NCBI RefSeq assembly: GCF_001578105.1
Contig: NZ_CP014275.1
Span: forward strand, 930,001-994,000
DNA length: 64,000 bases
Origin: Martelella sp. AD-3
Lineage (GTDB): Bacteria > Pseudomonadota > Alphaproteobacteria > Rhizobiales > Rhizobiaceae
Reading direction: 5' to 3'
Positions 31,391 to 57,323 of this stretch are shown here, piece after piece (position 1 is the stretch's first letter; each line of letters opens with the position of its first letter). The notes under the pieces are model-generated. The model did no database searches. It had not been told where the DNA came from and was given only the letters and a program-made list of their open reading frames with translations. The translations under genes and the position numbers were made by a program.

Positions 31391-31394
31391 TCTG

Positions 31395-32633: not shown

Positions 32634-32661
32634 ATGGCCGGAAAGCCGGTGGTGCGGCACG

Positions 32662-32682
32662 GAAATTGCTTATCATTATTTC
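32662..32682. promoter_or_regulatory. 21-bp dyad upstream of LysR gene A (shared with LysR gene B)
   Basis: GAAAT-N11-ATTTC, with the inner sequence TGCTTATCATT. The flanking block GCGGCA..(G/A)AAATTGCTTA..TTATTT is repeated almost unchanged upstream of the LysR gene at 48675 (dyad at 48573-48593). It is 36 bp before this LysR start, a sensible place for an autoregulatory LysR site. Confidence 0.6.
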
Positions 32683-32717
32683 GGGAGACCGTTTTGTGCA
32701 TGTGAAAGGCGATTTGC

Positions 32718-33716: not shown

Positions 33717-33894
33717 GCCGCAGCCTATACCGCATATAAGCCCAGGCGGAATTGCCGAACGTCAAATGGCATGATCATAATGTAGGCACAAATCTAAACT
33801 GCATAAAACTTAGTCCGGTTGGTTGCCGTGCCGAGCCGTGTCGCTCGCGCCGCCGGCGAAGCCTTGTCCGGACGCTGGATGGAAGGAAGACCAA

Positions 33895-34710: not shown

Positions 34711-34714
34711 TCGC

Positions 34715-36325
34715 TTGCTGGCACGAAACCCGACATCTGCCGTTTCAAAGCGCGTCGAACACCTCACCCTGAAAGACGGTGTGGCGCTGGCGGCGGATGT
34801 CTATCGCCCGCCGGGCGAGGGGGACTGGCCGGTTCTTCTGATGCGCCAGCCCTATGGCAAGGCAATCGCCTCCACCGTCGTCCTCGCCCACCCCTCCTGG
34901 TATGCCCGCCACGGCTATCTCGTGGTGGTGCAGGACGTGCGCGGCATGGGCGCCTCGGAAGGCGATTTCGATTGCCTGCGCCAGGAATTGAGCGATGGCG
35001 CGGAAACGGTCGACTGGGCGCGGGGGCTTGAGGGGGCCAACGGCAAGATCGGGCTCTACGGCTTTTCCTATCAGGCGATCACGCAATATCTGGCGCTTGC
35101 CGGCGGCGGACGAGTGGATGCCATGGCACCGGCCATGGGGTCCTTCGCACCGGAGAAGGACTGGGCCTATGAGGGCGGGGCGCCGCGTTATGCCGGCATG
35201 GTCGGCTGGGCGCTGCAGATGGCTTTGCTGAAGGCTGCCCATGATGGCGATCGCGAGACCCATGCCGAACTTTCCGCCCTCAAGGGCCTTCCGGAGACAG
35301 CCCGCTACCTCGCCGAACGCCCGGCGCTTTCGCACCTGAAGCGCTGGATCGACAATGCCGAAAGCGACTGGGATCAGGTCTCGCCTAAGCGCTTGCTCAA
35401 GGATCACGCGCTGGATATCCCGGTGCTGCACACCGGCGGCTGGTACGACTTCATGCTGGAAGGCACGCTTGCCGCCGATCGGGCGTTTCGCAACGCCTCG
35501 CCGGAGACCGCGCATCTTGCCATCGGCCCGTGGGCGCATATGCCGTGGAACGGCGCAAGCGGCCAATCGCGCATGCCGGAAGCGGAGACCTATTCCGTCG
35601 ACCGCGCCAATATCGCCTTCTTCGATTTCTATCTGAAGAACCGGGGCAATCCGCCGCCGGCTCTCACGCTGTTCGATATGGGGGAGCGTCGCTGGAGGGC
35701 GTTCGACCACTGGCCGGAGCCCCTGAAGAAACCGCTGGCGCTCGCTTCCGGCGGGCTTGCCGCGACGCTTGCCAATGACGGCAGGCTTGCGGATGTGGCC
35801 GGCGATGGTGAGGATGTGCTCGTCAGCGATCCCTTCCGTCCGGCGCCGCTTGTCGGCGGACATGTCGGCGAACCGGCGGGCTTCGTCGATCGGGCGGCGA
35901 GCGACGACCGTTCAGACGTCGCCGTCTATACCACAGCGCCCTTTGCGCAGGACTTCATCCTTTGCGGGCCCGTCAGGGCTGACATCACCATATCGACGGA
36001 AGCACAGGTTTTCGATCTCGTTGCCACGCTCTCTCTGGTCACCCCCACAGGAAGCGCAAACGTGATCCAGACCGGAATAACCCGGACAAAAGTGACGGGT
36101 GCGCCGGTGAGCGTCGGTCTCAGAGCGGCCTTTGTCACGGTGCCGGCGGGTTTCAGCCTCCGCCTGTCGCTGCAGGCCGCCGCCTGGCCCGCCTTTTCTC
36201 TCCATGCACAAGACCCGGCATCTGCCGATGGGATGAACGCTCAGCCGCTGACGCTGGCGATCTGCCACGCGGCCAGCCGTCTCGTGCTTTCCGTTCTGAA
36301 TGAGGACACCGCAAATGGCGCCTAA
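34715..36325 (+). CDS. CocE/NonD-family hydrolase (S15-type)
   Basis: About 536 aa. It has an alpha/beta-hydrolase domain with nucleophile S118 in IGLYGFSYQAITQYL, a helical insertion, and a C-terminal jelly-roll typical of cocaine-esterase and X-Pro dipeptidyl-peptidase relatives. No signal peptide, so it acts in the cytoplasm on an ester or amide. I chose the TTG at 34715, 4 bp after the creatininase stop with AAGGA eight bases upstream. Its end overlaps the ABC ATPase gene by 11 bp, so it is firmly embedded in the transport operon, an uncommon partner for a Pot-type transporter. Confidence 0.85.
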   Translation: MLARNPTSAVSKRVEHLTLKDGVALAADVYRPPGEGDWPVLLMRQPYGKAIASTVVLAHPSWYARHGYLVVVQDVRGMGASEGDFDCLRQELSDGAETVDWARGLEGANGKIGLYGFSYQAITQYLALAGGGRVDAMAPAMGSFAPEKDWAYEGGAPRYAGMVGWALQMALLKAAHDGDRETHAELSALKGLPETARYLAERPALSHLKRWIDNAESDWDQVSPKRLLKDHALDIPVLHTGGWYDFMLEGTLAADRAFRNASPETAHLAIGPWAHMPWNGASGQSRMPEAETYSVDRANIAFFDFYLKNRGNPPPALTLFDMGERRWRAFDHWPEPLKKPLALASGGLAATLANDGRLADVAGDGEDVLVSDPFRPAPLVGGHVGEPAGFVDRAASDDRSDVAVYTTAPFAQDFILCGPVRADITISTEAQVFDLVATLSLVTPTGSANVIQTGITRTKVTGAPVSVGLRAAFVTVPAGFSLRLSLQAAAWPAFSLHAQDPASADGMNAQPLTLAICHAASRLVLSVLNEDTANGA

Positions 36326-37340
36326 GCCCTATCTCACCCTCGACAATGTTTCGGCGACCTATGGCGATACCACAGCCGTCTCGGGCCTGACGATCGAAGT
36401 GCCCAAGGGCGAGCTTCTGTCGCTGCTCGGCCCGTCTGGCTGCGGCAAGACGACGACGCTCAGGATGATCGCCGGTTTCGTCGAGCCGTCGGGCGGTCGC
36501 ATCATCCTCAACGACAAGGACATCAGCCGCAAGCCGGTGCACAAGCGCAATATCGGCGTGGTGTTCCAGTCCTACGCGCTGTTTCCGCATCTGACCGTGA
36601 TCGACAATGTCGGCTTCGGTCTTCGCATGCGCAACGCCTCGCGGGCCGAGTGGCGGGAGCGGGCGGGAAAGACGCTGGAAACTGTCGGCCTTAGCCCCTA
36701 TGCCGACCGCTATCCCGGCCAGCTCTCCGGCGGCCAGCAGCAGCGCGTCGCCCTTGCCCGCGCGCTGGTGATCGAGCCGGATGTTCTGCTTCTGGATGAG
36801 CCGCTGTCGAACCTCGACGCCAATCTCAGGGCCGACATGCGCAACGAGATCCGCTCGCTGCAGCAGCGCCTCGGCATCACCACCATCTTCGTCACCCACG
36901 ACCAATCCGAAGCGCTTTCGATGTCGGACCGGGTGGCGGTGATGAGCAAGGGCGTGATGAGCGAGATCGGCACGCCGCTTGCCCTTTGCGATCACCCCAA
37001 GAGCCCGTTTACCGCGACCTTCCTCGGCCACCGCACGGTGATCGACGGCAAGGTGGAGAACGGCGTGTTTTCCGCCCCCGGCATCACCTGCGCCGGTGCG
37101 CCGGCAAAGGCCACCAAACTGGTGCTGCGCGCCTCGCGCCTGCGCTTCGGCGAAGAGAACTCCCCGCTTTCGGTCTCAGGAACGCTCGTCAACGCAGCCT
37201 ATCTCGGCGAGACCTATGAGGCCGATATCCAGGCCGCCTGCGGCATGATCCGGCTTGTCGTTCCCTCCGATACGCCGCCGCCGCCGGTCGGCACCGCATG
37301 CCGGGTCACCGCCGAACCGGGCGGGACCACCTTTATCTGA
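36315..37340 (+). CDS. ABC transporter ATP-binding protein (PotA type)
   Basis: 341 aa. Walker A GPSGCGKTT, Q-loop VVFQSYALFPHLT, signature LSGGQQQRVALARAL, Walker B VLLLDEPLSNLD and the H-loop VTHD are intact, with a C-terminal TOBE domain (LVLRASRLRFGEE onward). The ATG at 36315 lies within the end of the CocE gene. It energises the import of the ligand bound by the next gene's product, probably a polyamine-like cation or related nitrogen compound. Confidence 0.92.
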   Translation: MAPKPYLTLDNVSATYGDTTAVSGLTIEVPKGELLSLLGPSGCGKTTTLRMIAGFVEPSGGRIILNDKDISRKPVHKRNIGVVFQSYALFPHLTVIDNVGFGLRMRNASRAEWRERAGKTLETVGLSPYADRYPGQLSGGQQQRVALARALVIEPDVLLLDEPLSNLDANLRADMRNEIRSLQQRLGITTIFVTHDQSEALSMSDRVAVMSKGVMSEIGTPLALCDHPKSPFTATFLGHRTVIDGKVENGVFSAPGITCAGAPAKATKLVLRASRLRFGEENSPLSVSGTLVNAAYLGETYEADIQAACGMIRLVVPSDTPPPPVGTACRVTAEPGGTTFI

Positions 37341-37370
37341 CAAAAACATAAAACCAGGAGAACAGCTGTC

Positions 37371-38423
37371 ATGAACATCAAGAGACGTTCCTTCAACAAA
37401 CTTATTCTGGGCGGGGCCGCCACGCTTGCCGCTCCCTATTCCTTCGTCCGGGCCCAGACGCCGGACCCGAAGCCCGGCGACGAGCTTGTCGTCGGCATCT
37501 GGGGCGGCACCCAGGAAAAGATCGTCAAACAGTATATCGAGCCGGTTCTGGTCGACAAATACGGCTGCAAGATCTCCTATGTTCTGGGCGGTACCGTCGA
37601 GCGCCGCGCCCGCGCCTATGCCGAGCGCGGCCGCCCGAGCTTCGACGTGCTCTACCTCAACATCTTCGAAAGCCGTCAGGCCGTGAAGGATGGCGTCACC
37701 CAGCCGGCGACCGATGCCGTCGAAAACGCGCAATATCTCTACCCGATCGCCAGGAAGGGCGGTTACGGCGTTGCCATCAACCCCTGCACCATCGTCTACA
37801 ACAAGACCAAGGCGTCCGCGCCGATCACGTCCTGGAAGGACATGTGGAAGCCGGAATGGCAGGGCCGCATCGCATGGCCGAACGGCCTCGGCGCCGAGGG
37901 CATTTCCGCGCTGATGATGTCGACGCTTTCCTGGTTCGGCGACCAGACCAAAATGGCGCCGGAAGGCTTCGACAAGGTCAAGGAACTGAAGCCCTTTGCC
38001 GCTATCCAGGGCAGCCAGGCGCAGCTCTTCGACATGTTCGATCAGGATATCGCCGATCTGTCGGTCGAGTTCGGCAGCTTCTGCGAAAAATACATCGAGG
38101 AGCGGAACCCCGATTTCGCACTCGCCGATCCGGAAGAAGGCAAGGCGCTCGCCATGAACGTCGCCTGCATCACCGAGGGCACGCGGAACCAGAAGCTGGC
38201 GGAAGAGTGGGTCAACCTGCACCTGTCGCCGGAGGTCATGCTTGCCTATGCCAAGGAGATCTACTACTCGCCGACCGTCGACAATGTCGATATCCCGGCT
38301 GACCTGCAGAGCAAGCTGATCATGCCCGACCAGATCGACACCCTTGTCGACTTCGACTGGGATTACATCAATGCCAACCGCAATAAATGGCAGTCCATCT
38401 ACGACCGGGAGATTGCCGGATGA
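37371..38423 (+). CDS. ABC transporter substrate-binding protein (PotD-like), Tat signal
   Basis: 350 aa periplasmic binding protein. The N-terminus NIKRRSFNKLILGGAATLAA is a twin-arginine-type signal, which is unusual for this family and may imply folding before export. The mature part contains ELVVGIWGGTQEKIVKQYIE and VLYLNIFESRQAVKDG, related to the binding protein at 49825 (LVVGVWGG; VAFLNMYEAPQALSDG). SD AGGAG precedes the ATG. Ligand unknown. Confidence 0.9.
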   Translation: MNIKRRSFNKLILGGAATLAAPYSFVRAQTPDPKPGDELVVGIWGGTQEKIVKQYIEPVLVDKYGCKISYVLGGTVERRARAYAERGRPSFDVLYLNIFESRQAVKDGVTQPATDAVENAQYLYPIARKGGYGVAINPCTIVYNKTKASAPITSWKDMWKPEWQGRIAWPNGLGAEGISALMMSTLSWFGDQTKMAPEGFDKVKELKPFAAIQGSQAQLFDMFDQDIADLSVEFGSFCEKYIEERNPDFALADPEEGKALAMNVACITEGTRNQKLAEEWVNLHLSPEVMLAYAKEIYYSPTVDNVDIPADLQSKLIMPDQIDTLVDFDWDYINANRNKWQSIYDREIAG

Positions 38424-40108
38424 GGAAATGGCTTGGGCCGGCGCTTTCAGCGCCGGTCACCATCTGGCTCCTGATCGCTTTTGCCGCGCCGCTTGTCGCG
38501 GTGGTATTCCTGTCCCTGCATGAATATTCCGACCCGTTCGGACCGCTGATCCAGTCGCCCTCGCTGCAGCAGTTCATCGATATCGCCTCCGACAGTTTCT
38601 ACTATCGGGTGGTGTTCGAGACGATCTGGCTGTCGGTCGCGGTCACCATCGCCTCGGCGCTGCTCGGCTATCCGGTGGCCTACTGGCTGGCGCGCATGCC
38701 GGGCAAATACCGCGCCTTTGCCTTTGCCATCGTTCTCATTCCGCTTTTGACCAATGTGGTCGTGCGCTCGCTCGGCATTATCCTGTTGCTGTCGCCGGAA
38801 GGGCTGATCAATATCGTCACCGGCTGGTTCGGCATTCCGCCCGTCAAGACCATGCTGTTCAACCACGGCGCGGTGATCGTGGCGCTGACCCAGGTGTTCA
38901 TGCCCTTCATGGTGCTGGCGCTCTACGACAATCTTCAGAACACCTCGCCGCGCGTGCACGAGGCGGCCCGAAGCCTCGGCGCCTCGCCCGCGATCCGCTT
39001 TCTGACGGTTGATCTGCCGCTGTCCCTGCCGGGGCTCAAGTCCGGCATGATCGTTGTCTTCCTGATGTCGTCGACCTCTTACGTCTCCGCCACCATGCTC
39101 GGCGGCAAGAAGGTCTGGACCACCGGCATGCTGGTGCTGCAGGAGGCCATGCACAATCTCAACACCTCGCTTGCCGCAGCGCTGGCGCTGGTGATGACGG
39201 TCACGGGCCTGCTTTTCGCCGTGCTGGCGACGCTTGCGCTCAACCGGCTGATGACCTGGCGCTATGGCGGCAGAAGCCGGCCGTTCGCGCTGCCGCGCTT
39301 TGTCGAGCCGGTCGTCAATGTCGCCGGTCCGATCATCTCCTGGCTGCTGTTTGCCGCCTCCGTCGTGCTGCTGCTGCTGCCGCTCGGCCTCGTCTTCGTC
39401 CAAAGCTTCAACGATGTGGAACTGGCGACAGCCGCCGGCTTCCGCGGCTTCACGCTGCGCTGGTATCACGAGGTCTTCGTTTCCGGCTACTACACGGATT
39501 CCTTCATCGTTTCCGTCAAGGTGGCGCTTGCGGCGCTTGCCGTGTCGCTGATCATTGCGGTGCCGGCCGCCTTCGCGCTGGCCCGCTTTCCCTTCCGCGG
39601 CCGCTCGGCGCTGCTTGCCTTCTGGCTGCTGCCGCTGACGCTTCCGCATGTGGCCCTCGGCGTCGGCATGCTGAAACTCCTGCAGATCTACGTGGCCGTG
39701 CCCGCCTTCATTGGTCTTGTGGCGATCCATGTCGTGGTCATCCTGCCCTTTGCCATCACGCTTCTGACGGCATCGGTGATCGGCCTCGACGAGGCGCAGG
39801 AAGAGGCGGCGGCAAGTCTCGGGGCGAACGCCTGGAAGCGCTTGCTGCTGGTGATCGTGCCGGGGCTGATGCCCGGCCTCTTCGCCACCTCGATCGTCGG
39901 CTTCCTCCTAAGCTTCGACGAGGTGACGGTCACGAGCTTCCTCACCACAGCCCGGCTGACGACGCTGCCGGTGCGCCTCTACGCCGAGGCCTCGTTCGAA
40001 CTGAGGCCGACCGCGCATGCGCTCTCCTCCGTGCTGATCCTGCTGACCATCGTGCTGCTCGCCATCGTCGGCCGTTTTGTCCGGCTGGACCGGCTTTATG
40101 CAAGGTAG
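38420..40108 (+). CDS. ABC transporter permease, PotB-PotC fusion
   Basis: 562 aa carrying two complete permease halves in one chain: residues about 1-280 (PotB-like) and about 295-562 (PotC-like). Each half has its own EAA loop, EAARSLGASPAIRFLTVDLP and EAAASLGANAWKRLLLVIVP. The ATG overlaps the binding-protein stop (ATGA). The related transporter further right has two separate permease genes, so the fusion state differs between paralogous systems. No frameshift or stop separates the halves; the linker LMTWRYGGRSRPFALPRF is intact. Confidence 0.9.
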   Translation: MRKWLGPALSAPVTIWLLIAFAAPLVAVVFLSLHEYSDPFGPLIQSPSLQQFIDIASDSFYYRVVFETIWLSVAVTIASALLGYPVAYWLARMPGKYRAFAFAIVLIPLLTNVVVRSLGIILLLSPEGLINIVTGWFGIPPVKTMLFNHGAVIVALTQVFMPFMVLALYDNLQNTSPRVHEAARSLGASPAIRFLTVDLPLSLPGLKSGMIVVFLMSSTSYVSATMLGGKKVWTTGMLVLQEAMHNLNTSLAAALALVMTVTGLLFAVLATLALNRLMTWRYGGRSRPFALPRFVEPVVNVAGPIISWLLFAASVVLLLLPLGLVFVQSFNDVELATAAGFRGFTLRWYHEVFVSGYYTDSFIVSVKVALAALAVSLIIAVPAAFALARFPFRGRSALLAFWLLPLTLPHVALGVGMLKLLQIYVAVPAFIGLVAIHVVVILPFAITLLTASVIGLDEAQEEAAASLGANAWKRLLLVIVPGLMPGLFATSIVGFLLSFDEVTVTSFLTTARLTTLPVRLYAEASFELRPTAHALSSVLILLTIVLLAIVGRFVRLDRLYAR

Positions 40109-41558: not shown

Positions 41559-41987
41559 ATGCTCACCTATGCATTCGAACAGGTCGAAAAGGCCGAGGTC
41601 TTCAAGATTGCTCCGACCGATACCAATTATTTCGCGATCCTGTTTGATCCGAAGAAGGACGAGATCGACAATATATTCGTCATCGAGATCTTTACTGTCG
41701 GCGGCGCCACGCCGCCGAACGAGCACAGCCACGCGCATGAATTTTTCTACGTCCTCGAGGGTGAGGGCATCGCTTCCAGCGACGGCGAGGAAATGCCGAT
41801 CAAAAAGGGCGACGCGCTGATGCTGCGTCCGGGCTCGGAACATGTGGTCAAGAATACTGGCTCCTCCAAGCTCTACACGCTGACGGTGATGACGCCGAAC
41901 CAGGATTTCGCCGAGCTCATCCGTTCCGGCGAGCGCGTTTCGCTGGATGCGGAAGACCTGAAGGTGCTGACCGGGAAGGCGGCCTGA
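41559..41987 (+). CDS. Cupin-domain protein
   Basis: 142 aa single-domain cupin. Motif 1 is HSHAHEFFYVLEGEG with metal-ligand His and Glu, motif 2 is PGSEHVVKNTG. Cytoplasmic. The ATG at 41559 follows CAGAGGG; an open extension upstream runs through the promoter area and is not protein-like. It is the first gene of a tight row; the next ATG overlaps its stop. It may be a small ring-opening or isomerising enzyme or a sensor; no closer assignment is possible. Confidence 0.8.
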   Translation: MLTYAFEQVEKAEVFKIAPTDTNYFAILFDPKKDEIDNIFVIEIFTVGGATPPNEHSHAHEFFYVLEGEGIASSDGEEMPIKKGDALMLRPGSEHVVKNTGSSKLYTLTVMTPNQDFAELIRSGERVSLDAEDLKVLTGKAA

Positions 41988-42772
41988 TGCGGAAAGACGC
42001 CGATGCCCTGCCGCTCGGCCCTTCGCGGCTGAACCGGTGGCAGGTTTCAAAAGGGCGGGTCGATATGGTCCGGGCGCAGCCCGCGCCGCGCCCGCTTGCC
42101 GTGAAGGACCGGGGCCGGGAGATCGTCTTCGACCTGAACCGCACCGCCATCATCGTCGTCGACATGCAGAATGATTTCTGCCATCCCGATGGCTGGCTTG
42201 CCGGAATCGGCGTCGATGTTTCTCCGGCCCGCGCGCCGATCAATCCGTTGCAGCGACTGCTTCCGGGCCTGCGGTCTGCCCAAGTGCCGGTCATCTGGCT
42301 CAACTGGGGCAACCGCGCGGACAAGGCCAACCTGCCGCCCTCCACGCTCCACGTTTACAAGCCCACGGGGCGGGAAACCGGCATCGGCGATCCGCTGCCC
42401 AACGGCGCGAATGTTCTGGAAAAGGGCAGTTGGGCGGCGGCCGTGGTGGACGAACTCGAGATCGCGGAGACTGACATTTCTGTCGACAAGTTCCGCATGT
42501 CGGGCTTTCAGGACACCGAACTCGACAGCGTGTTGCGCAATCTCGGCATCGCCACCCTGCTCTTTGCCGGCGTCAACGTCGACCAGTGCGTGCTCTGCAC
42601 CCTGCAGGACGCCGGTTTCCTTGGCTATGACTGCATTCTGGTCGAGGACTGTTCGGCAACCACCTCGCCGCAATTCTGCATGGACGCCACCCTCTACAAC
42701 ATCCGCCAGTGCTTCGGCTTCGTCTGTTCATCGGATGATATCGTCGCCGGCCTTTCGCGAGCAGACGCATGA
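41987..42772 (+). CDS. Isochorismatase-family cysteine hydrolase (biuret/ureide amidohydrolase-like)
   Basis: 261 aa. The catalytic triad is visible: D59 in IVVDMQNDF, K168 in VDKFRMSGF, C201 in VNVDQCVLCTL; the following cis-peptide region is present. Within this family, biuret hydrolase (BiuH), ureidoacrylate hydrolase (RutB) and N-carbamoylsarcosine amidase share this triad. The neighbours (AtzH/HpxZ-like, amidase) favour a ureide- or biuret-type substrate. TGATG overlap with the cupin; ATGA overlap with the next gene. Confidence 0.85.
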   Translation: MRKDADALPLGPSRLNRWQVSKGRVDMVRAQPAPRPLAVKDRGREIVFDLNRTAIIVVDMQNDFCHPDGWLAGIGVDVSPARAPINPLQRLLPGLRSAQVPVIWLNWGNRADKANLPPSTLHVYKPTGRETGIGDPLPNGANVLEKGSWAAAVVDELEIAETDISVDKFRMSGFQDTELDSVLRNLGIATLLFAGVNVDQCVLCTLQDAGFLGYDCILVEDCSATTSPQFCMDATLYNIRQCFGFVCSSDDIVAGLSRADA

Positions 42773-46049: not shown

Positions 46050-47012
46050 TCAGGCCGGAAAGCGCTTTCTGAGAAAACCGTCGATAAGATCCATCGCCTT
46101 TTCCTCCAGCAGCGGAAAGCCGAGCTTTCGGGCGGTTTCGGCGGCAAAACAGGCCGGGAAATCCTGCGGCCCGTAGTTCGGCGTGTCGGTGCGGTCGATC
46201 AGCGACAGCATCTCTTCGCCTGCCCGTTCGGCAAGGGCTGCAAGCAGCATCTCGACCGTCAGCGAGATGCCGGGCATGACGAGCGCCCGCGCATCTGCCG
46301 GGATCGACCCTTCAAGGTTTGCCGCGTGGATGAGCTGCGCCACCGCCGTTTCCGGCGAGGCCAGCCAGTGGCGCACATCGTCTGAGGCGGGCAGAAGCGC
46401 GCGCCGGCCTTCCAGCGGTTCGCGGATGATGTTGGAAAAGAAGCCGGAATTGCCGTGGGTGGCCTTGCCGGGCCGGACCGCGATTGTGGCCAGGCGCAGG
46501 CAGATGCCGTCGACAAAGCCCATGCGCGTATAATCGGCGATGATCGCCTCGCTCATCAGCTTCTGCGTGCCGTAGGAACTGTCCGGACGGGGCGTTGTCG
46601 CATCGTCGATCAGGGCGGGAAAGGGCGCGCCATAGACGCCGATCGACGAGGCATGGACAAGGCGCGGACAATAATCATCGCCCGCAAGACGGATCGCCTC
46701 GAGGGTTGCCCGCACCGTATCGAAATTGATGTGGTAGCCGATGGCGAAATTGCTGTCGGCCTGGCCCATGGCGGTGGCGGCCACGTGAAAGATCACGTCC
46801 GGACGCGCGGCTATCACCTCTCCGATCGTCTCGAACTCCGCCGCATCCCCCGTCACCCATTGCGTGGCATCCCCTTCGATCTCGCTCTTGCGGATATCGG
46901 AGAGAATGAGCGCGTCAAGGCTTTCAGTGCCGAGCGCGCGGCGTGCAATCAGCGTTTCGGCGAGCGCGCGGCCGATCATGCCGGAAGCGCCGATAATGGC
47001 AACGGAGGCCAT
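46050..47012 (-). CDS. NAD-dependent epimerase/dehydratase (DenD-like)
   Basis: 320 aa extended SDR. N-terminal nucleotide motif IIGASGMIGRALAE; catalytic Tyr-Lys in SSYGTQKLMSEAII with upstream Ser in VHASSIGVYG. The overall pattern resembles D-erythronate dehydrogenase (DenD), which oxidises 4-carbon sugar acids. It follows the amidohydrolase gene by 14 bp on the same strand and ends 6 bp from the convergent GGT-like gene. Confidence 0.82.
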   Translation of the reverse strand: MASVAIIGASGMIGRALAETLIARRALGTESLDALILSDIRKSEIEGDATQWVTGDAAEFETIGEVIAARPDVIFHVAATAMGQADSNFAIGYHINFDTVRATLEAIRLAGDDYCPRLVHASSIGVYGAPFPALIDDATTPRPDSSYGTQKLMSEAIIADYTRMGFVDGICLRLATIAVRPGKATHGNSGFFSNIIREPLEGRRALLPASDDVRHWLASPETAVAQLIHAANLEGSIPADARALVMPGISLTVEMLLAALAERAGEEMLSLIDRTDTPNYGPQDFPACFAAETARKLGFPLLEEKAMDLIDGFLRKRFPA

Positions 47013-49672: not shown

Positions 49673-49824
49673 GCAAGGGGTCTTATGAAACGTCAATTCC
49701 TGCCGTTTAATTGGTTTCGAGAGAGCCGGTCTTCCGCGGACCTCTTCTTGATACACGGCAAGCGGCGCTCATGACCGCGACCCGCGTTTCGACCAATCAG
49801 ACAAACAAGGGGAATTGCAACATC

Positions 49825-50856
49825 ATGCTGAAGAAACTGACCACAGCCCTTCTCGCCGGCGCCATCGGCGTGCCCGCCGCCGGCGCCTTTGCTGCCGACG
49901 ATTATGCCGGCCACACGCTCGTCGTCGGCGTCTGGGGCGGCGATATCGAACGCCTGTTGCGCGAAAACGTTGCCGGTCCGATCGAAGAGGAAACCGGCGC
50001 GTCCGTCGAATTCGTTCTCGGCGGCACGGGCGACCGCATGGCCCGCATCTATGCGGAAAAGGACAATCCGACCATGGATGTCGCCTTCCTCAACATGTAC
50101 GAGGCTCCGCAGGCGCTTTCCGATGGCATCGTTCTGCCGCCCGATCCGGAAACCGACATGTACAAGGCCATCTGGGATGGCATGAACAATGGCTGCTACG
50201 CCATGTCTCTGGTCGGTCTCGGCATCGCCTACAACAAGAACATCGTTTCCGAAGCGCCGGAATGGGAAGACATGTGGGACCCGGAATATAGCGGCATGAT
50301 CGCCGTTGCCCAGTATCCGGGTTCGGAAGGCGACGGCCTGATCGGCGTTGCCGCACGCCTTGCCGGCGCTGACGAGCATGATCCCGATGCCGCCTTCGAA
50401 AAGCTGCAGGGCCTGAAGCCGATCGCCATGACCTACACCAATCTCGACGAGATCTTCGCCATGATGGATGCCGGCGAAGTGGCCATGGCGCCGATGATCT
50501 CCGGTTACGTTCTGTCGGCGCTGAAGGAACATCCCGATATCGGCTTCTCCTTCCCGACCGATCCCGGCCCGGTTTTGGTGCGCGACATGCTCTGCCTGGT
50601 GAAGGACAGCCCCGAGCCGGAACTTGCCAAGATGTTTGCCGAAAAGGCCCTCGGCGTCGCAAACCAGACCGATTACGCCGAGCAGATCTTCTTCGGCCCG
50701 ACCAACTCCATGGTCGAGCTATCGGAAGAAGCCTCCGCCGACGTGATCGACACGCCGGAAGAGGTCGAAAGCCTGGTACAGCTGGACTGGCCCTACGTCA
50801 TCGAGCAGCGCAGCGACTGGACCCAGCGCTGGAACAAGGAACTGCTCGAACAGTAA
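49825..50856 (+). CDS. ABC transporter substrate-binding protein (PotD-like)
   Basis: 343 aa. Sec signal peptide MLKKLTTALLAGAIGVPAAG with cleavage near AFA-ADD. Mature start HTLVVGVWGGDIERLLRENV; related to the binding protein at 37371. The ATG at 49825 is chosen for the AAGGGGAA at 49807-49814. It leads a long operon of transport and nucleoside-type enzymes, so the ligand may be a nucleoside or N-glycoside rather than a polyamine; this is inference from context. Confidence 0.9.
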   Translation: MLKKLTTALLAGAIGVPAAGAFAADDYAGHTLVVGVWGGDIERLLRENVAGPIEEETGASVEFVLGGTGDRMARIYAEKDNPTMDVAFLNMYEAPQALSDGIVLPPDPETDMYKAIWDGMNNGCYAMSLVGLGIAYNKNIVSEAPEWEDMWDPEYSGMIAVAQYPGSEGDGLIGVAARLAGADEHDPDAAFEKLQGLKPIAMTYTNLDEIFAMMDAGEVAMAPMISGYVLSALKEHPDIGFSFPTDPGPVLVRDMLCLVKDSPEPELAKMFAEKALGVANQTDYAEQIFFGPTNSMVELSEEASADVIDTPEEVESLVQLDWPYVIEQRSDWTQRWNKELLEQ

Positions 50857-50869
50857 GTCCACGACCCTT

Positions 50870-50897
50870 GCCGCCGCGCCGCAACCGGCGCGGCGGC
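50870..50897 (+). other. Intercistronic hairpin after the binding-protein gene
   Basis: Perfect 11-bp GC-only arms (GCCGCCGCGCC and GGCGCGGCGGC) around a 6-nt loop, followed by only TTT. Hairpins at this position in ABC operons commonly protect the binding-protein mRNA and reduce read-through, giving more binding protein than permease. Confidence 0.65.
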
Positions 50898-50940
50898 TTT
50901 CACCATTCTGGTGATGCTGCAATCGGGTAGAAGTGATCTC

Positions 50941-51789
50941 ATGAACAAACGCGCGCTGATGCTGCTGATGCCGGCACTCATCCTGTCGGGCATCGTCTTT
51001 CTGCTTCCCTTTCTGTGGCTGTTTGTCACCAGTTTCAGGGTGCAGGGGGAAGGCTCGCTTTTGATGGCGGAAGGCTTTTCGGCGGCCAATTACGCCAGGC
51101 TGGTATCCGACACCTATTTTGCCGAGGTCTTCTTCCGCACCATCTGGATGAGCGCAGCGGCAACCGTGATTGCCCTTGTCATCGCGCTGCCGATGGCGCG
51201 CCAGATCGCCGTCAGCGCCGGCCGGGCCAAGGGCCTGCTGCTGGCTCTTATTCTGGTGCCGCTCGTTTCCGGCGCGCTGCTTCCCACGCTCGGCATGCTG
51301 CATCTTCTGGGGCCGCTCGGGGTGATCAACTCCATCCTGAAGGACCTCGGGCTGATTACCCGCAGCGTCAAGTTTCTCGGCACGGTGCCGGGGGTCGTTA
51401 TCGGCCTTGTGCAGGCCTTCCTGCCGCTGATGCTGCTGCCGCTGGTCAACGCGCTTTCGCGTCTGCCGAAGGACGTGGAAGCGGCGGCCGAAACACTGGG
51501 CGCACCGACATTCATCGTCTGGCGGCGGGTCATCCTGCCGCTGATCGCGCCGGGCATCATTGCCGGCTCGGTGCTGGTGTTCTGCGCCTCGCTGACCTCC
51601 TTCGTCACGCCGCAGATCCTCGGCCAGGGCAAGATCGCGACCTTCGGCACCATGGCCTATCAGCAGGCCTCGCTGGTGCTGGACTGGCCGTTTGCCTCGG
51701 CCATCGCCGTGGTCATGCTGGCGATCCTGGCGCTCGGTCTTGCCATCGGCTCGTTTGCCTCGAAACTGCTCGCACGGAGGCCCGCATGA
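50941..51789 (+). CDS. ABC transporter permease (PotB type)
   Basis: 282 aa with six membrane helices (ALMLLMPALILSGIVFLLPF at the N-terminus) and the EAA loop EAAAETLGAPTFIVWRRVIL. The ATG at 50941 is preferred over one ten codons earlier because it fits the family start. Overlaps the next permease by ATGA. Confidence 0.9.
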   Translation: MNKRALMLLMPALILSGIVFLLPFLWLFVTSFRVQGEGSLLMAEGFSAANYARLVSDTYFAEVFFRTIWMSAAATVIALVIALPMARQIAVSAGRAKGLLLALILVPLVSGALLPTLGMLHLLGPLGVINSILKDLGLITRSVKFLGTVPGVVIGLVQAFLPLMLLPLVNALSRLPKDVEAAAETLGAPTFIVWRRVILPLIAPGIIAGSVLVFCASLTSFVTPQILGQGKIATFGTMAYQQASLVLDWPFASAIAVVMLAILALGLAIGSFASKLLARRPA

Positions 51790-52580
51790 AAACCTATGGG
51801 TTCGCCGTTTCCGCCCGCTTTGTCTGGACCGTGCTCGCCTTCATCTTCCTGCTGGCGCCGATCGCGGTTCTGATCTTCGCCTCTTTCGACGATGCGAGCT
51901 TCTTCCGCTTTCCGCCAAAGGCCTATTCTTTGCGCTGGTATGACGCCGCCCTTGAAAGCCGGGAATATAAAAGCGCACTGTCGGTCTCGCTTCTGGTTGC
52001 GCTGCTTGCGGGCTTCATCGCCGTTCTCTTCGGCGCCATGGCGGCCTTCGCGCTGGTACGCTACAGGCCGGCCGGCGGCCGGACCGTCGAGGCGATCCTG
52101 ATGACGCCGCTGGTGCTGCCGCTGATCGTCTGGGCGATTGCGCTGCTGCAGATCTATTCGCGCCTCGGCATGTCCGGCACGCTGCCGGCGCTGGTGCTTG
52201 CCCATGCGGTGATCACCATGCCCTTTTCCGTGCGCATCATGGTCTCGACCTTTGCCGATCTCGATCCGCTGCTGGAACAGGCTGCCGCCACGCTCGGCGC
52301 CTCTCCCGGCCGTGTGGTCCGGCGCATCACGCTTCCGCTTGCCATGCCGGGGCTCGTGTCATCCGCCGCCTTCTCGGTGCTGATTTCCTTCAATGACGTG
52401 ATCGTCTCCTCGCTGATTGCGGGCGCGCGCTGGATCACCTTTCCGGTCAGGCTTTATGCGCAGCTTCGAAGCCAGGGCATTGATCCGATCACGCTCGCCA
52501 TCGGTTCGGCGATTGTCGCCTTCATCCTTGTCGCCGCGCTGATCGGCGAATTCATGTTCAAATGGTCACGCCGTCTTTGA
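51786..52580 (+). CDS. ABC transporter permease (PotC type)
   Basis: 264 aa permease. FVWTVLAFIFLLAPIAVLIF forms the first helix, and the EAA-type loop reads EQAAATLGASPGRVVRRITL. ATGA overlap with the PotB-type gene. The nucleoside phosphorylase gene starts 13 bp downstream, placing an enzyme inside the transporter operon, before the ATPase gene. Confidence 0.9.
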   Translation: MKTYGFAVSARFVWTVLAFIFLLAPIAVLIFASFDDASFFRFPPKAYSLRWYDAALESREYKSALSVSLLVALLAGFIAVLFGAMAAFALVRYRPAGGRTVEAILMTPLVLPLIVWAIALLQIYSRLGMSGTLPALVLAHAVITMPFSVRIMVSTFADLDPLLEQAAATLGASPGRVVRRITLPLAMPGLVSSAAFSVLISFNDVIVSSLIAGARWITFPVRLYAQLRSQGIDPITLAIGSAIVAFILVAALIGEFMFKWSRRL

Positions 52581-52593
52581 GAAAGATTGAATA

Positions 52594-53421
52594 ATGTCCG
52601 AAGAATACCGCTATCTCAAAACCATGCCGCATTTCGTGCGCGACGGCGTGCCGCTGCTCACCGGCTTTACGCGCGACCGCATCGCTCCTTACGTGGTGCT
52701 TGCCGTCAAGGATCCGCTGGTCGTCGGTGACGGCGCGGAGGAGGATTCCCTTGCCGCAGCCCTCGACAATGCCGAAATCTCCGCAAAGACCGGCCTCTTC
52801 ACCACGGTGACCGGCACCTATGAGGGCGCGCCGGTCTCGATCGTCTCCGGCGGCTCCGGCTCGCCCGAGGCGGAACTGGCGCTGATGGACCTTTTCAACT
52901 TCACCGATTGCACCACCGTCATCCGCATTGGCGGCTGCGGCGCGTGGAGCCCGAAGGTCGGCGTCGGCGATATCGTCATCTCCTCCGGCGCGGTGCGCGA
53001 CGAGGGCATGACCAAGGCGCATGTTCGCGCCGAATATCCGGCCGTTGCCGACTGGCAGGTGGTCGGCGCGATGAAGGCGGCGGCCGATCAGGTCGGCCAT
53101 CCCTATCACATCGGCATCACCCGTTCCGGCGACAGCGAATATTGCGGCTGGGGCAAGCCGGGTCCGGGCGGCTATCTTCAGGAAGACCACAAGCAGGTCA
53201 TCGATTACTGGAGCCGCGCCGGCGTGCTCAACACGGACCGGGAAAGCGCCGCGATCCTGACGCTTTGCAGCCTTTACAGCCGTCGCGGCGGGGCCGTCTG
53301 CTCGGTCGGCGACAATGTGGTGACCGGCGAATTGCACAAATCCGGCTCAGGCCAGACGGCGGCGATCACGGTCGGCCTTTCCGCGCTTGCAAGCCTTTTC
53401 CGGGAGGATGCCAATGGCTGA
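52594..53421 (+). CDS. Nucleoside phosphorylase (uridine phosphorylase-like)
   Basis: 275 aa. NP-1-family signs: VSIVSGGSGSPEAELALMDL, VIRIGGCGAWSPKVGVGDIV (phosphate-binding region), RSGDSEYCGWGKPGPGGY and RESAAILTLCSLYSRRGGAV with the ribose-binding Glu. The expected reaction is phosphorolysis of an N-ribosyl bond giving ribose-1-phosphate and a base. It lies between the permeases and the ATPase of one operon, linking import to cleavage. Base specificity cannot be told. Confidence 0.87.
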   Translation: MSEEYRYLKTMPHFVRDGVPLLTGFTRDRIAPYVVLAVKDPLVVGDGAEEDSLAAALDNAEISAKTGLFTTVTGTYEGAPVSIVSGGSGSPEAELALMDLFNFTDCTTVIRIGGCGAWSPKVGVGDIVISSGAVRDEGMTKAHVRAEYPAVADWQVVGAMKAAADQVGHPYHIGITRSGDSEYCGWGKPGPGGYLQEDHKQVIDYWSRAGVLNTDRESAAILTLCSLYSRRGGAVCSVGDNVVTGELHKSGSGQTAAITVGLSALASLFREDANG

Positions 53422-54517
53422 CAAGCACGCGCCCGACCATCTGGTGATCCAGAAGGTGATGAAGCATTACGGCGGCGGCGGCGAGCCGGCGCTGAAAAGC
53501 GTGTCCCTTAATGTGCGCAAGGGCGAGTTCCTGGCGCTGCTCGGCCCTTCAGGTTGCGGCAAGACCACGCTTTTGAAGATCATCGCCGGCCTTGAGAAGG
53601 CAACCGAAGGCCAGATGGCGCTGGCGGGCGAGGGGCTGGATGCCATCCCGACCTACCGGCGCGATATCGGCATCGTCTTCCAGTCCTATGCGCTGTTTCC
53701 GCATATGACGGTCGATGCCAATATCCGCTTTGGCCTCGACATGCGCGGCATCAAGGGGAAAGAGGCTGACCGGCGGGTGGCGGAAGCGCTCGACCTGGTC
53801 AAGCTCGAAGGGCTTTCCGCGCGCATGCCCAACGCGCTTTCCGGCGGCCAGCAGCAGCGCGTGGCGCTTGCCCGTGCGCTCGTCATCCGCCCCAAGCTTC
53901 TGCTTCTCGATGAGCCGCTCTCCAATCTCGATGCAGTGCTCAGAAAAAGCGTGCGCGTCGATATCCGCGAACTGCACGAGCGCATCGGTCTGACGACGGT
54001 GATGGTGACCCATGACCAGGAGGAGGCAATGAGCATGGCCGATCGCGTGGCGGTGATGGCCAATGGCTATGTGTTGCAGCATGATACGCCGGAGACGATC
54101 TACGAGCATCCGGCCTCCGCCTTCGTGGCGACCTTCGTCGGCAGCCCGCCGGCGATCCTGCTGCCGGTGGAAAAGACGGACGACGGCTACGGCATCGGCG
54201 GCACGGCTTTTACCCCCACCACGACGCTCGCTGCGGCCATCGACCGGCAGAACGGAAAGCCGGTTCTGCTGGGCCTCCGCTCCGACCGGCTGTCCTTCTC
54301 CGATGAACCCGGTTCGCTGACAATCACCGGCGAGGTGCATTCCTGCGAATATATCGGCGGCTCCTGGCTGGTGCATGTGGCGCTCGGCGAGCACCGCATT
54401 GCCGTGCCGACGCGCGAACGCCCGCCGCAATTCGGCGAAGTCGCCCATATCCGCATCGACGAGGCCGAGCCGCTGCTGTTCGATCCCGAAACCGGCGCCA
54501 AGGTCGCGCTCTCATGA
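53414..54517 (+). CDS. ABC transporter ATP-binding protein (PotA type)
   Basis: 367 aa. Walker A GPSGCGKTTLLK, Q-loop IVFQSYALFPHMT, signature LSGGQQQRVALARAL, Walker B LLLLDEPLSNLD, H-loop VTHDQEEA; C-terminal TOBE domain (LLGLRSDRLSFSDEPGSL). The ATG at 53414 has GGGAGG six bases upstream and overlaps the phosphorylase gene by 8 bp. Overlaps the kinase gene by ATGA. Confidence 0.92.
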   Translation: MADKHAPDHLVIQKVMKHYGGGGEPALKSVSLNVRKGEFLALLGPSGCGKTTLLKIIAGLEKATEGQMALAGEGLDAIPTYRRDIGIVFQSYALFPHMTVDANIRFGLDMRGIKGKEADRRVAEALDLVKLEGLSARMPNALSGGQQQRVALARALVIRPKLLLLDEPLSNLDAVLRKSVRVDIRELHERIGLTTVMVTHDQEEAMSMADRVAVMANGYVLQHDTPETIYEHPASAFVATFVGSPPAILLPVEKTDDGYGIGGTAFTPTTTLAAAIDRQNGKPVLLGLRSDRLSFSDEPGSLTITGEVHSCEYIGGSWLVHVALGEHRIAVPTRERPPQFGEVAHIRIDEAEPLLFDPETGAKVALS

Positions 54518-55449
54518 GCGGCGCGATCTATTGCCTCGGGCCGCTGGTGCTTGACCGGATATTGACCGTTGATGACCTGCCCGGCCACGACGAGAAGGCC
54601 TTCATCAAGGAAAAGGAAGAGCGCGCCGGCGGTCCGCCGCTCAACTGCGCCTGGGCGCTGAGCCGGCTTGGTGAGGATGCCCGGCTGGTCTCCACAATCG
54701 GCGATGACGGCGAGGGCGCGATCCTGATGCAGTGGTTGGCCGAGCGCGACATGAGCACCGAAGCCGTCGACGTGAAGGCCGACAGCATCACCGCGTCCGC
54801 CACCATCATCGTCGACCGCACCGGGGAAAAGGCGATCCTGATCGATCCCGTTCCCGTCGAGACGCTGGCGGTGATTGGCGACAGCGTTTCGCTTCAGGCA
54901 GACGATACGGTCGTCTCCAATTTCTTCCATCCCGAAGCCGTGGCGCGCATGTTCGATCGCGCAGCGAAAACCGGCATCGACCGGATGATCGATCTGGAAC
55001 TGCCGGAGATCGAGCGATGGGGCTGGCAGGCGATGGAAAACATCCTGCCCTTCGCTTCGCTGGTGGTCACCAACCGGCAGGTACTCGAGGCATGGATGGC
55101 GCGCATCGGCAACGAACGGCCGATTGCCGAAGCCGCCGAGGGACTGGTGCGTTTTCTCTCGGGTGCCGGCAGCCGTAGCGCCGTCGTCACGCTCGGCTCC
55201 GAGGGGCTGGTCGCAATTGACGGCGATGCGGTGTTCCGCCTTGATGCCTTCAAGGTCACGCCGCGCAACACCACGGGAGCGGGCGATGTATTTCTGGCAG
55301 GCCTTGCCGCAGCCATGCGGCGCGGCCGGAAATTCAAAAAGGCGCTCGCCTTCGGCACGGCCGCCGCCGCGCATTTCCTGCAAACGGGGCGGTGCGACGG
55401 CGCCGCCGCCGAAGCGCTGATGAAAGACAAGATGAAGGAAAGACTGTAG
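54514..55449 (+). CDS. PfkB-family carbohydrate kinase
   Basis: 311 aa ribokinase-like kinase. The N-terminal substrate motif RAGGPPLNCAWALSRLG and the C-terminal signature NTTGAGDVFLAG with catalytic D258 are clear. It would phosphorylate a sugar or nucleoside released from the imported compound. Overlaps the ATPase gene and is 3 bp from the ADP-ribosylglycohydrolase gene. The pairing with that gene resembles E. coli yegV-yegU. Confidence 0.87.
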   Translation: MSGAIYCLGPLVLDRILTVDDLPGHDEKAFIKEKEERAGGPPLNCAWALSRLGEDARLVSTIGDDGEGAILMQWLAERDMSTEAVDVKADSITASATIIVDRTGEKAILIDPVPVETLAVIGDSVSLQADDTVVSNFFHPEAVARMFDRAAKTGIDRMIDLELPEIERWGWQAMENILPFASLVVTNRQVLEAWMARIGNERPIAEAAEGLVRFLSGAGSRSAVVTLGSEGLVAIDGDAVFRLDAFKVTPRNTTGAGDVFLAGLAAAMRRGRKFKKALAFGTAAAAHFLQTGRCDGAAAEALMKDKMKERL

Positions 55450-55452
55450 ACA

Positions 55453-56505
55453 ATGGCCACCAGATCGAAAGCAATCGAGGCCGTTCTTGCGGCCGCCTGC
55501 GTCGCCGACGCGCTGGGCGCTGCCACCGAATGCATGCACCCGGACGAGATTTTCCGTATTTTCGGCGGACCGGTGAAGACCTTTCGCACGCCGCCGGAAA
55601 AAGCGCCCTTCGCCAAGGGCCTCGCGCCGGGCCGGCTGACCGATGACGCGACGCAGATGCTGGCGATGGCGAAGCGGATTATCGGGCTTGATCGCCCGCC
55701 GGTCTCCGCCGACGCGATTGCCGGCTTCATCGACTGGTCGCACGACGAGGAAATGTTCCAGCGCTTTGCCGGACCGACGACGCGGATTGCCGTGGAGGCG
55801 ATGCGCGCCGGCGCGCCCGCGGAAGCCGTTGCCACGCCCGAGACCTATTCCTGCATGTTTGGCACCTCGAACGGCGGGGCGATGCGCGCGCCGACGGCCG
55901 GCTGTGCCGCGGCCGGTAATCTCCCCGAGGCTGTCAGGCTCGCCTGCCTGATGTCGGCCCCGACGCACAACACCCAGATCGCCTATGCCGGCGCTTCCGC
56001 CGTTGCCGGCGCAATTGCTGCCGGCCTGTCCGCTGAACGGTCGATGACCGTTTCGGAGGCGGCTCTTGAAGGCGCGCGGCTGGGCGAGGCCGAAGCATAT
56101 CGCAGCGGCCGTATCGTCGGCGGTGCGGGTGTTGCGCGCCGCATCGAGATCGCCGTCGAAATCGGCATCCGCTACAAGGCGGATATCGCGGCGGCGCGGG
56201 CCGAACTGATCGAGGTGATCGGCAATGGCGTTGCCATGTCGGAAGCCGTGCCGCATGCTTTCGGCCTTGTTGCCGCCGCAGACGGCGACCCGTGGGCGGC
56301 GATCGTCGCTGCCGTCAATGGCGGCAATGACAGCGACACGATCGCGATGATCGCGGGCGCGGTTGCCGCCGCCTGGAATGGTGCGGCGGGCATTCCGGCT
56401 CAACTGATCGAGGAGGTCTCGCGCGTGAATGGGCTGGATCTTGGGGGCGTTGCCGAGGGGCTTGCCACGTTCAACGAACAGGTTATTGCGGGAGAGCGCG
56501 CATGA
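55453..56505 (+). CDS. ADP-ribosylglycohydrolase-family protein
   Basis: 350 aa all-helical hydrolase. Dinuclear metal (usually Mg) motifs are present: LTDDATQML (residues 62-70) and GGNDSDTIAMIAGAV (from residue 290). VADALGAATECMHPDEIF is the usual N-terminus. Family members cleave N- or O-glycosidic ADP-ribose links, but many operon-encoded ones may act on simpler N-glycosides. Between a sugar kinase and a creatininase-like amidohydrolase, it could release ribose from an unusual nucleoside. ATGA overlap with the next gene. Confidence 0.87.
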   Translation: MATRSKAIEAVLAAACVADALGAATECMHPDEIFRIFGGPVKTFRTPPEKAPFAKGLAPGRLTDDATQMLAMAKRIIGLDRPPVSADAIAGFIDWSHDEEMFQRFAGPTTRIAVEAMRAGAPAEAVATPETYSCMFGTSNGGAMRAPTAGCAAAGNLPEAVRLACLMSAPTHNTQIAYAGASAVAGAIAAGLSAERSMTVSEAALEGARLGEAEAYRSGRIVGGAGVARRIEIAVEIGIRYKADIAAARAELIEVIGNGVAMSEAVPHAFGLVAAADGDPWAAIVAAVNGGNDSDTIAMIAGAVAAAWNGAAGIPAQLIEEVSRVNGLDLGGVAEGLATFNEQVIAGERA

Positions 56506-57323
56506 AGCGCTACTGGATGGAAATGACATCGCCGGACCATGCGGCGCTGCCGGAGAACACCGTCGCGGTTCTGCCCGTCGGGGCGACCGAGCAGCATGGG
56601 CCGCATCTGCCGGTCGGAACCGACTGCCTGATCAACAACGGCATCGTGGCCGAGGCGCTGAAGGTCCTTGGAGACGATGTTCCTGCCGTCATCCTGCCGC
56701 TACAGCCGGTCGGCGCCTCGCAGGAACATCTCGATTATGCCGGATCGCTCGCCCATCCCGCGCCCGATCTTATGCAATCCTGGACGCGGGTGCTCGACTG
56801 CGCGGTACGCTCCACCGGTCTGAAGCGCATTCTGATCTTTAACAGCCATGGCGGCCAGGCGGGGCTGCTTGCCACTGTGGCGCTCGACCAGCGCGTGCGT
56901 CACAACATTCTCGGCGCCTATGCCACCTGGTTCGATGCGGGATATCCCGAAGGGCTTTTCACCGATGAGGAGATCCGCACCGGCTTTCACGGCGGCGATA
57001 TCGAAACCTCGCTGATGCTGGCGCTGCACCCGGACCTGGTCGTCATGGAAAACCTCGGCGATTTTCCGTCGTCGGTTGACGAAATAGAGGCAGCTACCTC
57101 TCAGCTTTCCGCCAATCCCGGCGGCGGTCGCCTAGGTGGCCTCGGCTGGAAGGCGCAGGACCTCAATGCAGACGGGGTGACCGGCGATGCGCGCCGTGCA
57201 ACGGCGAAAAAGGGTAGGGCGTTGCTGGAGCACACGGCGGCGAGCCTCGCGAGGCTGATTGCCGATCTGGCGAACGCGCCGATGCCGTCGGACAACTGGC
57301 CGCCGGAGAAGTATCGGGCTTGA
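56502..57323 (+). CDS. Creatininase-family amidohydrolase B
   Basis: 273 aa. E30, H32 and D41 (TEQHGPHLPVGTD), NSHGGQAG and HGGDIETS mark the metal site. Paralogue of the protein at 33895 but in a different gene setting. The last gene of the nucleoside-type operon, overlapping the ADP-ribosylglycohydrolase gene, so it probably opens or deamidates the base moiety; formamidopyrimidine-type amide hydrolysis is a known reaction in this family. Confidence 0.88.
   Translation: MKRYWMEMTSPDHAALPENTVAVLPVGATEQHGPHLPVGTDCLINNGIVAEALKVLGDDVPAVILPLQPVGASQEHLDYAGSLAHPAPDLMQSWTRVLDCAVRSTGLKRILIFNSHGGQAGLLATVALDQRVRHNILGAYATWFDAGYPEGLFTDEEIRTGFHGGDIETSLMLALHPDLVVMENLGDFPSSVDEIEAATSQLSANPGGGRLGGLGWKAQDLNADGVTGDARRATAKKGRALLEHTAASLARLIADLANAPMPSDNWPPEKYRA

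Follow-up and report, generated by a model that had tools for sequence, protein, structure and literature searches.

Gene organization of the locus

The stretch of DNA considered here (the window: 64,000 nucleotides of Martelella sp. AD-3, positions 930,001 to 994,000 of contig NZ_CP014275.1) carries a run of eight genes on the plus strand in which an ATP-binding cassette (ABC) importer is combined with four enzymes. In order, they encode the binding protein of the importer (SBP; SBP_bac_8, PotD/PhnS type; 49825-50856), two permeases of the PotB (50941-51789) and PotC (51786-52580) types, each with a BPD_transp_1 domain, a homologue of the NP-I family N-ribosyl hydrolases and phosphorylases with a remodelled phosphate site (NP; PNP_UDP_1; 52594-53421), the PotA-type ATPase of the importer (ABC_tran and TOBE_2; 53414-54517), a PfkB-family kinase (PF00294; 54514-55449), an ADP-ribosylglycohydrolase (ARH)-family enzyme, predicted to be a ribosyl hydrolase (PF03747; 55453-56505), and a creatininase-family amidohydrolase (creat; PF02633; 56502-57323). 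Pfam backs the family name of each of the eight, and their places agree with those in an earlier note on this DNA, except that the gene caller prefers a start at 49771 for SBP over the 49825 given there. The intergenic gaps are 84, -4, 13, -8, -4, 3 and -4 bp, so that none exceeds 13 bp apart from the 84 bp after SBP. The operon had been called fused; no gene fusion is present.

The unit begins further upstream than had been noticed. A LysR regulator (PF00126 and PF03466; 48675-49661, plus strand) and a divergent gene, amh, for a TRZ/ATZ-type amidohydrolase and predicted deaminase (PF01979; 47027-48532, minus strand) belong to it, since comparison across genomes keeps both with the eight genes, and the run is thereby enlarged to a unit of about ten genes.

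The PotDBCA label proposed for the importer denotes a type only: the NCBIfam matches of SBP are to three 2-aminoethylphosphonate binding-protein models (E = 0.01), all far below cut-off. Its best relative in the PDB is 4edp (100 bits); the spermidine/putrescine-type binding protein 4eqb (39 bits) is also among its solved relatives, and there is weak similarity to the binding proteins for mannopine (28 bits) and agropine (27 bits). The best model for the ATPase, TIGR03265, gives 352.6 bits against a cut-off of 457.7.

Conservation across genomes

The order amh(-) lysR SBP potB potC NP potA pfkB [ARH] creat is conserved in 21 distinct genomes from at least five families: seven Martelella-like (the window, L017-L021 and L066), five Pleomorphomonas-like (L022-L024, L031 and L063), four Kaistia-like (L025, L028, L030 and L064), two of a Cohaesibacter-like genus (L059 and L060), Rhizobium lusitanum (L027), a Prosthecomicrobium (L029) and an Ancalomicrobiaceae metagenome-assembled genome (MAG; L026). 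The ARH of one of the Kaistia-like genomes, the MAG L030, is identical to an ARH named Kaistia. As this order recurs in 21 genomes while the outer flanks vary from genus to genus, the grouping goes beyond chance. The earlier note had set co-occurrence in related genomes beforehand as the check on whether importer and enzymes belong together, and the shared order bears this out, as does the position of the NP gene inside the transporter genes, between potC and potA, at all 21 loci. The genes amh, lysR and SBP were seen in 20 of the 21; the remaining contig (L030) starts in potC, with the upstream genes out of view. The L026 contig stops inside pfkB, and the same genome (G306) has ARH and creatininase genes adjacent to each other on contig C91.

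Genes split by frame in L019 (lysR, pfkB and ARH), L031 (amh) and L063 (ARH) were scored as present with the pieces kept apart, and the NP of L030 is incomplete at a run of N. L061, L062 and L065 are duplicates of L026, L029 and L022, and G011 (a short stretch, L002) was left out of the locus counts. The scan of named genomes for NP homologues led to 15 loci, further loci coming from other genome searches. At E < 1e-150, NP was found in 12 of the 397 genomes of an order-level sample, and it is present in seven of 13 genomes of the genus, the AD-3 genome included. In a tree of ARH sequences, R. lusitanum falls beside Prosthecomicrobium (support 96/90) rather than Martelella, a grouping that suggests movement of the unit from one bacterial lineage to another. 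Taken as a whole, it is a real, tightly conserved and probably mobile catabolic operon.

Three lineages have related acyl-CoA ligases (56-95% mutual identity) within the unit or next to it (L027:5664-7196, L029:5221-6741, L059:2731-4215 and L060:16566-18077); in L027 and L029 the ligase gene stands between lysR and SBP.

The NP homologue

NP shows the PNP_UDP_1 domain and the NP-I fold of DeoD and Udp, but it departs from the phosphate-site residue set of these phosphorylases, which we take to be Gly20, Arg24, Arg43, Arg87 and Ser/Thr90 (DeoD numbering throughout unless stated). Residues were counted over the best 120 of 521 matches that passed the threshold, these 120 being the ones listed, with P0068 (174 residues) dropped. 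Arg87 is kept in all 120 sequences, the equivalents of Arg43 and Ser90 are glycine in all 120, and that of Gly20 is arginine or lysine in 119 and alanine in one; the Arg24 position falls in a gapped stretch, where eight sequences have arginine. The base pocket is altered as well, with Glu or Asp in place of Phe159 (120/120) and Arg in place of Met180 (119/120). The catalytic Asp204 of the purine enzyme corresponds to Asp in 119 of the 120, a correspondence drawn from an alignment at about 25% identity. Compared with DeoD and Udp as a whole, NP shares the fold, Arg87/91, the ribose-contacting Glu181/198 and, with DeoD, Asp204, whereas positions 20, 43 and 90, the 5'-OH histidine, Phe159, Met180 and Arg217 are replaced. 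Of the residues that we assume to bind uracil in uridine phosphorylase, Gln166 has its equivalent in none of the 120 sequences, and Arg168 corresponds to arginine in 69 sequences and to lysine in the other 51. The contacts of Asp204 in the purine enzyme are dealt with in an excerpt of PMC11275124, and the roles of Ser90 and Arg43 in one of PMC3434127. Judged by these replacements, NP is probably not the ordinary phosphorylase of the earlier note and probably cuts its N-glycosidic bond with water rather than phosphate.

Relatives of NP in public data are named, among the matches listed, from Streptomyces, Microbacterium, Sphaerochaetaceae and others; the names point to members of the subclass in Actinomycetota, Spirochaetota and Chloroflexota. 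More distant homologues (36-52% identical to the NP of the window, E 1e-46 to 1e-86) occur at six loci of the order. Three of these (L053-L055) combine NP with two long ARHs, a nucleoside hydrolase, a PfkB kinase, a sugar isomerase-type protein and YjbQ; L056 and L057 have PfkB, the isomerase-type protein and YjbQ, with no ARH recognised there; and L058 has a nucleoside hydrolase and an SsuA-type ABC gene. The long ARH-family proteins of L053 (4387-6537 and 9952-12012) are of about 700 residues, and their C-terminal halves have no Pfam match at E 1e-5. A database protein of 437 residues (P0046) joins NP and ABC ATPase domains according to precomputed Pfam matches; an assembly error is possible.

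The kinase and the ADP-ribosylglycohydrolase

The ARH-family protein (PF03747, 155.8 bits) retains T63 D64 D65 and D293 D295 T296, the TDD and DxDT motifs that presumably bind the metal ions of ARH; they are invariant in eight aligned sequences and line up with YegU. In the kinase (PF00294, 129.8 bits) the catalytic aspartate of the GAGD motif, D258, is invariant in ten aligned sequences. Alignment with RbsK, PsuK and YegV places Pro and His at Lys43 and Glu143 of RbsK, which we take to be its ribose contacts, so that by sequence the protein is not an ordinary ribokinase; it scores 110.8 bits against the ribokinase model TIGR02152, below the cut-off of 299.65. The predicted structure (pLDDT 92.9) has ribokinases and a pseudouridine kinase among its best matches and does not settle the matter; the substrate may be a nucleoside or a pentose.

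The kinase-glycohydrolase pair had been likened to yegV-yegU of Escherichia coli. The likeness is one of kind only: yegTUV, of the GgaR regulon, also has adjacent ARH and PfkB genes with a transporter and a regulator. However, the transporter is an MFS symporter and the regulator of the GntR family, in place of the ABC importer and LysR of the unit, and NP, creatininase and amidohydrolase are missing. YegU itself falls in the opposite group of the major split of the ARH tree (31 rows; support 100/99), although its branch is long and cannot be placed there with precision.

ARHs from a Kaistia operon make up the sister clade to those of the unit (joint support 100/100). In the order-level sample, ARH relatives at E < 1e-100 were found in 16 genomes, namely ten that carry the unit with an ARH of its own and six of Kaistia. 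All six Kaistia genomes (L109-L111 and L122-L124) have a run of adenine deaminase, pfkB and ARH genes, transcribed divergently from neighbouring genes for isochorismatase and hydantoinase A/B. The one adenine deaminase tested scores 591 bits with TIGR01178, over the cut-off of 472.5, and 584 with NF007457, below the cut-off of 768; the kinases of this operon match the PfkB of the window at 167-205 bits. This operon resembles the unit in its sister ARH and related kinase, but has adenine deaminase in place of importer, NP and creatininase. Two of the six genomes (G317 and G371) also carry the unit without its own ARH, and with both loci in one genome the second may supply the ARH to the copies that lack it.

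The next-nearest ARHs (about E 1e-40; 15 matches, of which ten loci, L121 and L125-L133, were fetched) group with YegU and not with the window clade. A Pot-type importer adjoins the ARH at nine of the ten loci, L130 having neither importer nor PfkB, and a PfkB kinase with weak scores (19-43 bits) is found at eight, L129 having an unlabelled open reading frame of 322 residues instead. These GntR-ARH-PfkB-SBP-PotBCA loci of the order (L121, L125-L129 and L131-L133; GntR-UTRA regulators in the two tested) share ARH, PfkB and a Pot-type importer with the unit, but belong to the other ARH group, with no NP, creatininase or amh recognised alongside. Among the papers listed by a literature search there was none on such ARH-PfkB-importer loci. 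A database protein of 564 residues (P0175) joins ARH and PfkB domains according to precomputed Pfam matches, where an assembly error is again possible.

The amidohydrolases and neighbouring genes

The best PDB relative of amh is 4f0r, which is named as a methylthioadenosine/S-adenosylhomocysteine (MTA/SAH) deaminase and acts on nucleosides. The creatininase-family protein (PF02633, 204 bits) keeps E30, H32, D41, H116, H163 and E168 in all ten aligned sequences and scores below the cut-off of the model for creatininase proper (TIGR04448, 65.8 bits against 235). Hydrolysis of the base had been assigned to this enzyme; an adjoining island of base-degrading hydrolases had been missed. On the plus strand it comprises a cupin (41559-41987), a RutB-like isochorismatase-family amidohydrolase (42065-42772), an HpxZ/AtzH-like protein (NF033625 and PF11533; 42769-43179), an AtzE-type amidase (NF006169; 43292-44449) and a gamma-glutamyltransferase (GGT)-family enzyme (TIGR00066; 44457-46043). 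Between the island and amh lies, on the minus strand, a D-erythronate dehydrogenase-like NAD(P) enzyme (46050-47012; NF043036, 265.6 bits against a cut-off of 325), an optional accessory with related genes in the Martelella and Prosthecomicrobium loci.

The cupin and the isochorismatase-family protein, about 4-5.5 kb from amh, are close homologues of a pair that adjoins amh relatives in Kaistia (L025) and in G119 (L107); in L028 and L064 the cupin alone does so. The isochorismatase-family protein matches its G119 homologue at 339 bits and the RutB model at 141 bits, below the cut-off of 378, its best PDB relative being RutB (8bkd, 123 bits). The HpxZ-like protein passes NF033625 (171.5 bits, cut-off 135) and the amidase passes NF006169 (441 bits, cut-off 391), while scoring 199.5 bits with the AtzE model, below its cut-off. 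The GGT-family protein reaches 305 bits with TIGR00066, below the cut-off of 358; its best PDB relative is 5hft (chains A and B, E 3.5e-75 and 7.6e-75), which we take to be HpxW, the oxamate hydrolase of uric-acid breakdown in Klebsiella, so that the gene is presumably HpxW-like. The hpxWXYZ oxalurate genes of Klebsiella share with this island HpxZ, amidase and GGT-family genes. Such genes lie beside the unit in the window, L017, L018, L019 and L066, and not in L020 or L021; in the loci of other genera the sole match was a weak one to the GGT family (L027, 87 bits).

Distant relatives of amh have neighbours of a similar kind: a thymidine phosphorylase (500 bits over a cut-off of 269) and a nucleoside hydrolase in L117; a Pot-type importer, a creatininase and a cytosine-deaminase-fold enzyme in L113 and L114; HpxZ-like, amidase and isochorismatase genes in L108; and ABC genes sized like those of nucleoside-type importers in L112 and L115-L117. 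Together with the island, these neighbours suggest that a nucleobase-like ring is hydrolysed at amide and amino groups.

A second importer island lies at 30311-40108 of the window, with two cytosine-deaminase-like amidohydrolases, a LysR regulator, a creatininase paralogue, an S15-type hydrolase, an ATPase, a binding protein and a double-length permease. A related creatininase occurs in Pleomorphomonas (L136-L138) with a Pot-type importer, a LysR regulator and an acyl-CoA ligase, and a YjjI-like glycyl radical enzyme with a radical-SAM protein (L136:10671-13071) adjoins the ligase-creatininase island there.

Proposed pathway and alternatives

From the genes present, the order in which they are kept, and their catalytic motifs and neighbours we infer a substrate, an order of steps and a target for the kinase, leading us to propose, at roughly even odds (about 50%), that the unit is a catabolic operon under LysR control whose substrate is an N-riboside bearing a purine-like aglycone. 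The importer would take the compound up, and PfkB would phosphorylate the sugar, most likely on the intact riboside. The N-glycosidic bond would be cut by NP, probably with water, by the ARH-family enzyme, which may handle the alpha-anomer or the phosphorylated form, or by both, and the ribose (5-phosphate) would feed central metabolism. On the base side, amh would deaminate the aglycone and the creatininase would open cyclic or amide bonds in it, and in Martelella the isochorismatase, amidase, HpxZ and GGT-family enzymes encoded close by may continue towards oxalurate- or oxamate-like products. The N-glycoside of the earlier note thus gains several lines towards a purine-like aglycone: the retained Asp204, the adenine deaminase-pfkB-ARH sister clade of Kaistia, and the HpxZ, RutB-like and amidase neighbours, as in uric-acid and oxalurate breakdown. 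A kinase-then-glycosidase logic has a parallel in the pseudouridine operon psuTKG of E. coli, which likewise consists of a transporter, a PfkB-family kinase (PsuK, structurally near the PfkB of the window) and a glycosidase, but has no base-degrading hydrolases beside it. The glycosidase, PsuG, cleaves C-glycosides and belongs to a different family.

Several observations weigh against this proposal. The nearest fold of NP is that of a uridine phosphorylase, and with Arg168 matched by Arg or Lys in every sequence a pyrimidine-like base could still be part of the substrate; the Asp204 argument depends on an alignment of low identity. The glutamate that follows the WP motif in 4f0r and 4dyk, presumably the ribose-binding residue of MTA/SAH deaminase, is Phe or Leu in nine of nine aligned amh sequences, and amh occurs in G119 with no NP recognised nearby. 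The importers near amh relatives owe their BMP-type label to gene sizes and a single weak binding-protein match (43.9 bits against 400). HpxZ does not always accompany the unit: it occurs in 11 of 18 genomes that carry the unit and in two of six Martelella that do not, and in two unit-bearing Martelella it lies on another contig. ARH is gone from between pfkB and creat in three Kaistia copies (L025, L028 and L064), and it is hard to see a place in the scheme for the acyl-CoA ligase that four of the 21 loci contain.

The last of these points, together with the Glu/Asp and Arg of the altered base pocket and the weak likeness of SBP to mannopine and agropine binding proteins, would also suit an unrelated compound (N-heterocycle, opine or sugar-amide) with some aglycone other than a purine-like one, NP having been recruited for another N-glycosyl bond. 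This is unlikely: relatives of ARH and amh, and the more distant NPs, have many nucleobase or nucleoside enzymes among their neighbours. Ordinary purine nucleoside salvage, in which NP is a normal phosphorylase yielding ribose 1-phosphate, PfkB converts this to a bisphosphate or to ribose 5-phosphate, and amh is a nucleobase deaminase, we regard as improbable: the phosphate site is remodelled in all 120 NP sequences, two models (cut-offs 299.65 and 330) are matched far below cut-off, the presumed ribose contacts Lys43 and Glu143 of RbsK are not kept in PfkB, and the creatininase and ARH would be superfluous. The recurrence of ARH-PfkB pairs beside importers and beside adenine deaminase would be expected if the substrates were alpha-ribosides from the turnover of ADP-ribosylation, NAD or cobamides, with ARH as the key enzyme and NP acting on a second linkage. 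Three Kaistia copies, however, lack ARH with the rest of the operon kept, ARH specificity in this bacterial clade is a prediction only, and the amidohydrolases are left without explanation, so that we hold this account to be quite improbable. A polyamine or phosphonate importer merely sharing its operon with unrelated enzymes, as the 2-aminoethylphosphonate, TIGR03265 and 4eqb matches of SBP and ATPase might hint, is very improbable, given that every model match is below cut-off and that NP sits between potC and potA at all loci.

Within the proposal of a purine-like N-riboside, a ring-opened nucleoside, the example offered by the earlier note, is one candidate substrate among others. That the unit serves specifically to break down purine nucleosides that have been oxidised or ring-opened, for example hydantoin-type or FAPy-type products of damage to RNA or DNA, is a long shot. 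In such a pathway, uptake by the importer and cleavage by an NP-I enzyme that uses water and has a charged base pocket would free the damaged base, which the deaminase, the creatininase and the RutB-like, amidase and Hpx-type enzymes would dismantle to oxalurate and oxamate; the remodelled NP pocket would fit, as would neighbours of the hydantoin, ureide and oxalurate types. If true, it would be, as far as we know, the first bacterial pathway for feeding on damaged nucleosides.

Implications

Our searches of open-licence papers found no account of this gene set, and the unit is an orphan pathway with testable steps. Together with the adenine deaminase-pfkB-ARH operon of Kaistia, it gives ARH-PfkB pairs a testable handle in the form of an adenine-like aglycone. 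The NP subclass is often annotated in public data as 'uridine phosphorylase', among the matches listed; if the reaction of NP differs, many of these annotations would need correction.

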